From: Candidatus Saccharimonadota bacterium
GTDB lineage: Bacteria; Patescibacteriota; Saccharimonadia; Saccharimonadales; Saccharimonadaceae
Length of the DNA stretch: 44,052 nt
NCBI GenBank assembly: GCA_017511205.1
Contig: JAFWLE010000006.1
Coordinates: 1 to 44,052 of the forward strand
Reading direction: 5' to 3'
Shown here piece by piece: positions 10,499 through 16,517 of this stretch; position 1 is the first letter of the stretch; every line of letters starts with the position of its first letter. Under the pieces are notes generated by a model. That model did no database searches and was not told where the DNA came from. It saw nothing but the letters and a program-made list of their open reading frames with translations. Position numbers and translations under genes: made by a program.

Positions 10499-10852
10499 GG
10501 GGCTGAATTCAAGCTTAGACGGGATATTAACAGTTACAAGGCGTACCGATCAAATACCGTAAGTATTAATAAGTGCTAAAAACACGAAAACCGCGCATGT
10601 TTTATACATGCCGGCATATGCCTAATTTTTATAGGCTGGTCTTAGTTTGAGGTTTCGTAGAGCTAAGATTATCATACAACGAGAATAAGGTTATTTAAAC
10701 GGCGAGAAATGACACGAAAATTAGCCATGGTGTCTATTAGTTTCGTTTTCTGCAGCTGATAGAATAAACCAAGACAAAACAGAAGACTATGTGCGTAGAA
10801 TTGTAACCAGGTGGTATTTCGGACCCGGAGGCAGTATCCGGCAGCTCCACCA
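10499..10852 (+). ncRNA. ssrA: Transfer-messenger RNA (tmRNA)
   Basis: tmRNA rescues stalled ribosomes and tags the nascent chain for proteolysis. The 5' end GGGGCTG pairs with CAGCTCC before ACCA at the 3' end, forming the alanyl acceptor stem with encoded CCA. The 5' block AGACGGGAT and the 3' block ATTTCGGAC match the conserved tRNA-like domain of one-piece tmRNAs. The tag frame is at 10575-10625 and encodes AKNTKTAHVLYMPAYA followed by TAA; the stop falls in a GCC/GGC hairpin as in helix 5. The T-loop is GGCAGTA instead of the usual TTC-type loop. A TAGAAT -10 precedes the gene and a terminator follows. Length 354 nt is typical. Confidence 0.95.
10575..10625 (+). other. tmRNA proteolysis-tag reading frame
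   Basis: The resume codon is probably GCT at 10575, giving the 16-residue tag AKNTKTAHVLYMPAYA and TAA at 10623-10625. The tag ends in AYA rather than the common LAA. A hairpin with arms GCATGT/ACATGC lies inside the tag-coding sequence. The resume codon was placed by analogy with E. coli; a shift of one codon cannot be excluded. Confidence 0.7.
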
Positions 10853-14513: not shown

Positions 14514-14519
14514 GACAAT

Positions 14520-14852
14520 GAGCCGTCTATAAGCCGGGTTCTGTAATCTCGTAAAGAGACCGGCAATCATCTATCTCGGCGTTACATTGCTATAACGCTC
14601 TAGCGGTGAGCGTGCGTCCTCGAGCAGAGGCTGATAGCACTCCTTGCAACAGGTAGGGTTTGCCGCCATCTCATATCGCTACAAGATGTTGTGAGCTCTT
14701 ACCTCACTCTTTTCACCATCACTCTGCAAACTAACAGGGCAGTTTTGTTTCTGTGGTACTTTCCCTATCCTTGCGGACGGTCGCCGTTAGCGACTACCTT
14801 GCTCTATGTTGCCCGGACTTTCCTCTTTTAAAAGCGACTGCCTTTCAGGCTC
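14520..14852 (-). ncRNA. rnpB: RNase P RNA
   Basis: The catalytic RNA of RNase P matures tRNA 5' ends. On the minus strand it shows GAGGAAAGTCCGGGC near the 5' end and ACAGAACCCGGCTTATAGAC near the 3' end, the two most conserved strands of the P4/core region. The outer GAGCC/GGCTC pairing forms P1. The length of about 333 nt fits a bacterial type A-like RNA. It begins about 13 nt after the stop of the NUDIX-RNase H gene, so the two are probably co-transcribed. No separate promoter is obvious. Confidence 0.95.
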
Positions 14853-14864
14853 CCCTTAATTATA

Positions 14865-15707
14865 TCATTTTCGCAGGATTTCGTCTATGGCATCGTTCGC
14901 TTCAGCATCTGCAGCTAAGTTTTGGCTACGAGGAACATGTGTAAATGATACAGCATCAAACTGTTTAAGATTTTTTTGAATCTCTTGGTAGATTGGCAAA
15001 ATGTCTTGATTTTTGACCTTAAAAATACCGTTTAACTGATTAACCACCATCAAGCTATCAGAAATGAATCGAACGGTTTTTAGACCAAGTTCAATAGCCC
15101 GTTCGATGCCCTTTTTCATAGCGTAATACTCGGCTACTCTAGAGGTTGCAAAGCCAATAAACTCTCCATTTCGCTCGATGATCTTACCAGATTCATCGTG
15201 GATGCAATAACCAATGCCGGAGGGACCAGGATTACCACGTGAGGCTCCATCGACATAAATAGTCACACCGTTAGCGGCAGTGCGAGGTGAAATATGACTG
15301 GCAGTAATTTTATTCCACTCAATTTCAAGAACAGAGATGGTGGTTTCGTCTAATTTGACACCACCAAAGTCTTTGATGTATTTATAGGCCGTGTAGCGAT
15401 CCTTCGGGGTTGGTTTGAGATTTTGACTAACGCCTAATTCGTAAATAATATAGAGGTTACTGAGTTGACTAGATCCCTCAGGAGCTAGAAAAGTGATTAC
15501 ATCTTTTAGCGTGATAGAGTCAGCAACTAGGCCAGTACACTCAGTAAGTGATCTAGCCATAGCTTCTTCGGGTTGTTCGCCAAATCTAATCTTGCCAATC
15601 GGCAATTCCCAAAAAACCGGCGACTCTGAACGTCCCCGGCTGCGTTTCAAAATCAGCACCCCATTTTCGTTCTGTACTAAACCAACTACGCGAATTCTCT
15701 GTTTCAT
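14865..15707 (-). CDS. NUDIX domain fused to RNase HI
   Basis: This 280-residue fusion joins a NUDIX-like domain (about 1-130) to a complete RNase HI domain (about 147-280). The Nudix box at 38-60 keeps G38, E44, R52, E56 and G59, but two catalytic positions are Ser53 and Cys57 instead of Glu. Hydrolase activity is therefore doubtful and the domain may only bind nucleotide or RNA. RNase HI has all four metal ligands (D153, E193, D217, D267) and the GASRGNPGPSG motif, so RNA-DNA hybrid cleavage is expected. The ATG at 15707 follows GGTGGGC; the frame continues upstream to 15791 but only through the structured leader. rnpB follows directly. Confidence 0.9.
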   Translation of the reverse strand: MKQRIRVVGLVQNENGVLILKRSRGRSESPVFWELPIGKIRFGEQPEEAMARSLTECTGLVADSITLKDVITFLAPEGSSQLSNLYIIYELGVSQNLKPTPKDRYTAYKYIKDFGGVKLDETTISVLEIEWNKITASHISPRTAANGVTIYVDGASRGNPGPSGIGYCIHDESGKIIERNGEFIGFATSRVAEYYAMKKGIERAIELGLKTVRFISDSLMVVNQLNGIFKVKNQDILPIYQEIQKNLKQFDAVSFTHVPRSQNLAADAEANDAIDEILRK

Positions 15708-15867
15708 GCCCACCTTTATCTTAAAAGCCCTGCCGGCCTGTTTTCCCCGTAATATATACAAGGTGGGTAAAATCTTATGCGATACACCCACAGGTGTAAG
15801 CCACGAAATCCCTAAAACAAGATTATTCAGGAAAATCTTGCTGCCAACAGGGCTTAGTATTATTATA
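15708..15867 (-). promoter_or_regulatory. Structured 5' leader, candidate riboswitch
   Basis: A perfect -10 TATAAT (15862-15867) would start transcription at about 15855, exactly where AAGCCCTG begins. That segment pairs with CAGGGCTT (15725-15732), closing a 131-nt domain. Inside are a CAAGATT/AATCTTG hairpin and mutually exclusive pairings: ACACC/GGTGT versus GTGGGT/ACCCAC. The segment CCCACCTT (15760-15767) is an 8-nt perfect complement of the ribosome-binding site AAGGTGGG (15709-15716). Such an arrangement is typical of translational riboswitches. It matches no class I know by eye; the ligand is unknown. Confidence 0.55.
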
Positions 15868-15872
15868 GCACA

Positions 15873-16517
15873 TTATTGGCCAACTAATAGATAGAAGAAA
15901 CTAATTATTCCGTTGGCACCATTTACCATTAGAAAAGAAAAGGCTTCACCGAAGAGCAGAATTAAAGCGTAAACGATAAATAGACCATATTGCTCTATTT
16001 GAGCGAGAAAGGAGCGGACAGAGTCGGGGGAAATTGCGTAAAGCACGCGAGAGCCATCTAGAGGTGGTACCGGTATTAGATTAAATAGCATGAAACCGAG
16101 ATTAACGTAAATCAATTCTGTAAAAATAAGCATTACAGTTTTATCGCCAGAATTATAGAGTGCGCCGGAAAAATGTCCAATCAAAAATGACAAAAATGCA
16201 ATGAGAAAATTAGCAAATGGACCAGCCAGGGCTACTAAAACCATGCCCCATTCACGCCATTTGAGATTACGGTAATTCACTGGGACTGGTTTAGCGGCGC
16301 CAAAAACTGGGGCGCCTATGATATAGAGTAATACTGGCACCAGGATCGATAGATAAGGATCAATATGTTTGATGGGGTTTAAGGTCAAGCGACCGGCGTC
16401 TTTGGCGGTACGATCGCCTAATAGATAGGCTACAGCGCCGTGTGAAAGCTCATGCAAAGTCACCGAAAAAAACACAATGACTAAAACAATAATTACATAG
16501 CCAAAATTTAAGTTCAA
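15873..16517 (-). CDS. Site-2 protease-type membrane metalloprotease (M50)
   Basis: This is an intramembrane zinc protease of the SpoIVFB/S2P-like group. HELSHG at residues 22-27 supplies the zinc histidines and catalytic Glu within the first transmembrane helix. NLIPVPPLDGSRV near 147-158 supplies the third ligand, D154. Five or six membrane helices are predicted in 214 residues. There is no PDZ or CBS domain, so this is the minimal form. Its ATG overlaps the stop of the upstream MBL-like gene by 4 nt, showing translational coupling. The substrate is unknown. Confidence 0.9.
   Translation of the reverse strand: MNLNFGYVIIVLVIVFFSVTLHELSHGAVAYLLGDRTAKDAGRLTLNPIKHIDPYLSILVPVLLYIIGAPVFGAAKPVPVNYRNLKWREWGMVLVALAGPFANFLIAFLSFLIGHFSGALYNSGDKTVMLIFTELIYVNLGFMLFNLIPVPPLDGSRVLYAISPDSVRSFLAQIEQYGLFIVYALILLFGEAFSFLMVNGANGIISFFYLLVGQ

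Follow-up and report, generated by a model that had tools for sequence, protein, structure and literature searches.

The minus strand of the window, by which we mean the whole analysed stretch of 44,052 nt, carries at 15856-15724 an RNA about 133 nt long, between the gene of an M50 peptidase upstream (15873..16517, PF02163), which is its conserved neighbour, and a NUDIX-RNase H gene downstream (14865..15707; PF00293, PF00075 and PF13456), and the question is to which kind of RNA it belongs. The first-pass annotation had described it as a riboswitch-like leader of the NUDIX gene. 6S RNA in other bacteria is a small RNA that grips RNA polymerase, and from sequence comparison we put the probability that the window RNA is the long diverged Saccharibacteria version of 6S RNA (SsrS) at roughly 93%. 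The orthology is based on covariance models, a common core motif, a common gene neighbourhood and a covarying architecture. The genus of the window is, as we infer, Ca. Nanosyncoccus.

The strings on which the earlier description was built are all present on the minus strand. AAGCCCTG (15855-15848) and CAGGGCTT (15732-15725) enclose 131 nt, CCCACCTT (15767-15760) is an exact 8-nt complement of AAGGTGGG (15716-15709), and the ACACC/GGTGT hairpin is found at 15797-15784. Indeed, the NUDIX-RNase H gene is preceded, in the same orientation, by a structured and conserved domain whose 5' end bears a promoter box. In nearly all relatives a TATAAT box lies just 5' of the RNA; in the window this -10 box occupies 15862..15867, has a TGN before it and is kept across the aligned genus loci. 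The ends of the RNA (15724..15856, minus strand) were placed according to this box and the closing stem, and the RNA is presumably expressed.

With -53.7 kcal/mol the domain folds far better than its dinucleotide shuffles (mean -33.4 kcal/mol, z -6.0, 0/200 as good). The proposed check for covariation among aligned leaders was positive for the closing stem, the bubble hairpin and the apical stem in the genus alignment A1, from which the truncated L004 was excluded: 96.7% of the cells are paired, and 71 cells are changed on both sides versus 19.3 in shuffles. While the stems vary, the cores ATTTTC, GGGATTTCG and ACCCACC are near-constant in the 33 aligned genus copies, ACCCACC being present in all 33 rows. 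In the 54-sequence alignment A5 both-side changes occur in 21 of 24 pairs, a number reached by 0/500 shuffles, but since A5 was fitted to the structure of the model R2 described below, these pair counts are biased toward that structure.

The architecture which emerges is that of a 6S RNA, with closing stem, central bubble, P2 helix, apical arm and a core GGGA...ACCCACCU. The 5' strand of the closing stem (15843..15855) is indicated by fold and covariation, and its 3' strand (15725..15737), which is followed by UU(UU), by the fold. The P2 helix adjoins the bubble and is formed by AUUUUCC (15830..15836; permutation test, covariation of helix 2 in A5) and GGGGAAAA (15741..15748; covariation, permutation test). 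A 5'-bubble hairpin (15817..15841; genus covariation, permutation test) is in competition with P2, both requiring the same strand. The apical arm GGGA...ACCC (15765..15812) comprises the hairpin 15784-15797 with its tetraloop and is assigned by fold and covariation; its motif is also part of the Rfam 6S consensus. On the 3' bubble strand lie the invariant ACCCACCUU (15760..15768), seen in the genus alignment and in that of the Rfam-found 6S RNAs, and a 3'-bubble hairpin (15745..15763; genus covariation).

The longest 3'-end T run is 6 in 10 of 44 non-genus loci and 4 in the window, with means of 3.5 for six genus loci and 4.2 for the 44 others. The U-tract of the genus is therefore not clearly weaker than elsewhere, and a decayed terminator is not claimed. 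In one genus member only (L026) the stretch that separates the RNA from the NUDIX start contains a hairpin and a T run resembling a terminator.

Blastn against 60 relatives, 36 of them in the genus, detected the RNA in 34 of these 36 with E of about 1e-12 or better; of the remaining two, G014 gave no match and G008 one with E 0.45 only. None of the 24 relatives outside the genus gave a convincing blastn match. A covariance model built from 33 genus sequences only, without any 6S sequence (R1), reached further: of 197 genomes of the order 53 gave a match, as did 71 of the 147 sampled in the class, always with a single copy per genome.

The Rfam scan proposed with the first-pass annotation gave a divided answer. 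At the gathering cut-off, where RNase P, tmRNA and tRNAs of the window were recovered, the window RNA is unmatched, yet orthologs at the same locus in other genomes are recognized as 6S RNAs. In a permissive scan of 601 bases no row for the 6S model RF00013 appeared for the window RNA at E <= 10, and a search of its own whole genome gave no RF00013 match to it; the snR36 and ZNRD1-AS1_2 rows in the 601-base scan are regarded as chance. The same kind of permissive scan over 18 distant loci found by R1 placed RF00013 exactly on the RNA in four of them, with 38.2 (E 2.9e-4), 29.8, 27.5 and 23.5 bits against a cut-off of 46.4. Of the 147 class genomes 15 are matched by RF00013, five of them over the cut-off; in the phylum it matches 17 of 192 at E <= 0.1, and two of these exceed the cut-off. 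Not a single genome of the class sample of 147 is matched by R1 as well as by RF00013. Upstream of both kinds of loci there is, as a rule, an M50 gene, which together with the disjoint genome sets indicates the same gene in different lineages.

This was also seen from the opposite side. The model R2 was built from 22 RNAs found by RF00013 and none found by R1 (alignment A4, 22 of 27 RF00013 loci; L114, L115, L124, L127 and L129 were excluded as partial, near copy or doubtful). Applied to 53 sources of R1-found RNAs it gave 49 matches, all of them on the RNA and 35 at E < 0.01, where the E-values of R1 to R3 are, as the tool itself states, rough. In the reverse direction R1 matches just one of the 27 loci found by RF00013. 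R2 scores the window RNA itself at 14.0 bits (with E 1.6 in 205 kb), and without filters this is the first of 28 places in 2 kb, narrowly ahead of the second with 12.9 bits. Other genus members range from L026 (E 0.031), L033 (0.092), L024 (0.21) and L006 (0.25) to L034 (0.93) and L019 (2.8), and L030 and L031 gave no R2 match. As the window copy is too diverged for RF00013 and its R2 score is low, its 6S identity rests on a chain of relatives.

The Rfam 6S consensus includes GGGagccc...gggcaCCCACCU...GGuUCaA, and the core common to the Rfam alignments consists of GGGA, the apical arm, ACCCACCU and a GG-UCAA strand which pairs back to the 5' side. CCCAC is invariant in the 22 Rfam-found 6S RNAs; by sequence, the CCCACC that had been named a sequester is this invariant element of 6S RNA. 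A merged model built on A5 with 54 loci, the sequence of the window included (R3), recovers the RNA, always in exactly one copy, from 134 of 147 class genomes; 91 of these genomes lie outside the training set, and at E <= 0.01 the model matches 70 of 192 phylum genomes, 60 of them outside the training set. On the window RNA the matches cover 15723-15856 (R1 and R3) and 15710-15863 (R2). Three genus genomes with a completeness of 97-99% (G207, G270 and G276) gave no convincing match with R1 or R3, for which loss, strong change or an assembly gap are possibilities.

Compared to 6S/SsrS as represented by RF00013, the window RNA has the same closing stem, central bubble, adjoining P2 and apical arm GGGA...ACCC, the same invariant CCCACCU with a small hairpin in the 3' bubble strand, and likewise a single copy per genome with its own promoter box. 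It differs by its size, with about 133 nt against 187 model positions, by escaping detection with RF00013, by the 5'-bubble hairpin that competes with P2, and by its M50 and NUDIX neighbours. Full-length Rfam-found relatives have 141-172 nt; 6S RNAs usually have about 200 nt, and this length is not strict.

The 6S-like shape and the strong divergence from RF00013 would also fit an RNA like Ms1, which is 6S-shaped and bound to core polymerase without sigma factor. We regard this as very improbable, because relatives at the same locus exceed the RF00013 cut-off and the 6S core motif is kept, while Ms1 belongs, according to PMC9130861, to the Actinobacteria, another lineage with another gene neighbourhood.

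Even less credit is given to a much-diverged SRP RNA, otherwise missing in these bacteria, which had been the first guess from the closing stem and is practically refuted by the 6S match. It would account for the fact that the SRP model RF00169 finds nothing in 40 relatives or in 192 genomes from the phylum, with 11 of 14 controls positive, whereas the window RNA is single-copy and conserved. However, no SRP model matches the RNA while 6S models do, and the M domain of SRP54 (PF02978), the expected binder, was likewise found in none of 20 relatives (14 of 14 controls were positive). The signal recognition particle thus seems to be lost or unrecognisable in G000 and its relatives.

The gene neighbourhood bears on the proposal of a leader. 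Among 50 R1-found loci that were compared (44 outside and six inside the genus) all 50 have an M50 gene upstream in the same orientation, with a larger gap in two. An extra ORF on the opposite strand (361 and 262 aa, respectively) was noticed between the M50 gene and the RNA in L003 and L008. The same upstream neighbour on the same strand was found in 23 of 27 RF00013 loci. It was further found in 12 of 20 phylum loci identified by R3 outside the training set, in one of them at about 850 nt; among the others of these 20 it is on the opposite strand in one and absent in seven. The downstream side is less constant: a NUDIX gene or a part of it within 1.5 kb is present in 38 of the 50 loci and without a match in 12, a tRNA gene follows on the same strand in eight of 18 distant loci, and rnpB follows in three distant ones (L069, L080 and L099). 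The lack of the NUDIX gene in the 12 loci and the adjoining tRNA in the eight indicate that the RNA is older than its tie to NUDIX. Since tRNA or rnpB are often found downstream elsewhere, regulation of the NUDIX gene is no ancestral trait and the RNA is by origin no NUDIX leader.

In the riboswitch reading, the RNA would sense something and regulate how the NUDIX-RNase H gene is translated, CCCACCTT serving to hide the ribosome-binding site. The site AAGGTGGG (15709..15716) is, as mentioned, exactly complementary over 8 nt to the invariant element, and all 39 loci recovered via the NUDIX protein alone have the RNA immediately upstream. Complementarity is kept in the genus: GGTGG or GTGGG precedes 30 of 32 NUDIX starts in shifting registers, but just 13 of the 123 other starts, and the canonical ribosome-binding core is present at four of the 32 compared to 56 of the 123, where the 32 NUDIX starts represent one lineage and are not independent. 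L004, truncated and without a NUDIX start, and L014, missed by the script, are not part of this count; by eye the site of L014 reads GGTGGG. All 13 matches among the non-NUDIX controls are, by their first residues, starts of M50 genes, and most of them overlap codons of the preceding gene.

A sensing leader of this kind is nevertheless hardly credible to us. The supposed anti-sequester GTGGGT is found in just six of 33 genus sequences. Forced pairing of CCCACCTT with the site costs 9.3 kcal/mol compared to the best fold (-44.4 versus -53.7 kcal/mol), and the pairing probability is about 0. The RNA is orthologous to 6S RNA, its element is invariant in the 6S RNAs of distant genomes, and tRNA or rnpB take the downstream place elsewhere. 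Because CCCACCTT contains the invariant 6S element, its conservation requires no switch. Thus, from the earlier reading the conserved RNA 5' of the NUDIX gene stands, and its status as a riboswitch-like leader does not, given orthology to 6S RNA and an age above that of the NUDIX tie. A new riboswitch class was rejected on the basis of the neighbourhood and the 6S match.

As a 6S RNA, the window RNA would act on the polymerase. According to PMC8876501, the -35-like and -10-like elements of 6S RNAs reside in the apical arm and the 3' bubble strand; a product RNA is transcribed by the polymerase from the 5' bubble on into P2, and P2 then opens. By analogy, the rod with its open central bubble would mimic a melted promoter and probably bind RNA polymerase carrying the main sigma factor, and transcription from ordinary promoters would be lowered by the bound RNA. 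The RNA would be released as the polymerase synthesizes a short product RNA on the 5' bubble strand and onward into P2; this product is expected to start near 15825 and to read AUUCAGGAAAAUC...

Both helices that share the 5' strand of P2 are recognized in permutation tests on 50 sequences. For P2 (AUUUUCC/GGGGAAAA) matched strands have a mean of -7.96 versus -7.06 kcal/mol for permuted ones, and for the 5'-bubble hairpin, which is weak or absent in several of the sequences, the values are -3.53 and -2.38 kcal/mol; both differences were reached by 0/2000 permutations in statistics which ignore relatedness among the 50 sequences. That one strand is common to two conserved helices suggests that the 5'-bubble hairpin helps P2 to open. 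6S-1 RNA of Bacillus subtilis is similar in the 3'-bubble hairpin of the free RNA and in the breaking of P2 upon product RNA synthesis, and differs in that its 5'-bubble pairing is, according to PMC8876501, only weakly predicted and unconfirmed by probing, while the hairpin covaries here.

In the genus, to judge from the spacing, a 6S-NUDIX read-through transcript is likely, and the RNA would also form its 5' part. A comparable arrangement is known from gamma-proteobacteria, where ssrS is located within the 5' UTR of ygfA, so that a 6S RNA directly precedes a metabolic gene on the same strand, as stated in PMC4064990. A 6S RNA in front of a protein gene is consequently ordinary; a pairing role would not be. 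Here, in contrast, the partner is a NUDIX-RNase H gene whose ribosome-binding site is complementary to a 6S element, and we know of no ssrS-ygfA pair with such complementarity. The complementarity of the NUDIX site to the invariant element in 30 of 32 cases makes a second, base-pairing role possible, yet unproven. The CCCACC of the genus 6S RNA could pair with GGTGGG of the NUDIX mRNA in cis (on the read-through transcript) or in trans (as free 6S RNA), so that NUDIX translation would track the free versus the polymerase-held 6S RNA; we consider this speculative and rather unlikely. If true, a 6S RNA combining the functions of a polymerase decoy and an antisense regulator would be a novelty.

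Saccharibacteria are tiny parasites (epibionts) of other bacteria. If the 6S assignment is right, they retain a global RNA polymerase switch which RF00013 detects in 15 of 147 class genomes and the merged model in 134 of 147, and this would be a ready starting point for studying how epibionts reduce transcription between hosts. A search for literature on 6S RNA in Saccharibacteria, the candidate phyla radiation or Patescibacteria found none, most subscription papers being outside that search. New, as far as this search shows, would be a short 6S RNA that is invisible to the Rfam model and has an unusual partner gene.

Some further features may be mentioned. A 148-aa ORF had no Pfam match. The tmRNA gene of the window at 10499-10852 (plus strand) is matched by Rfam with 89.6 bits, yet was not called by ARAGORN. 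The rnpB gene (14515-14853, minus strand) lies 3' of the NUDIX gene, and across the class M50, 6S, tRNA, NUDIX and rnpB form a shifting cluster.
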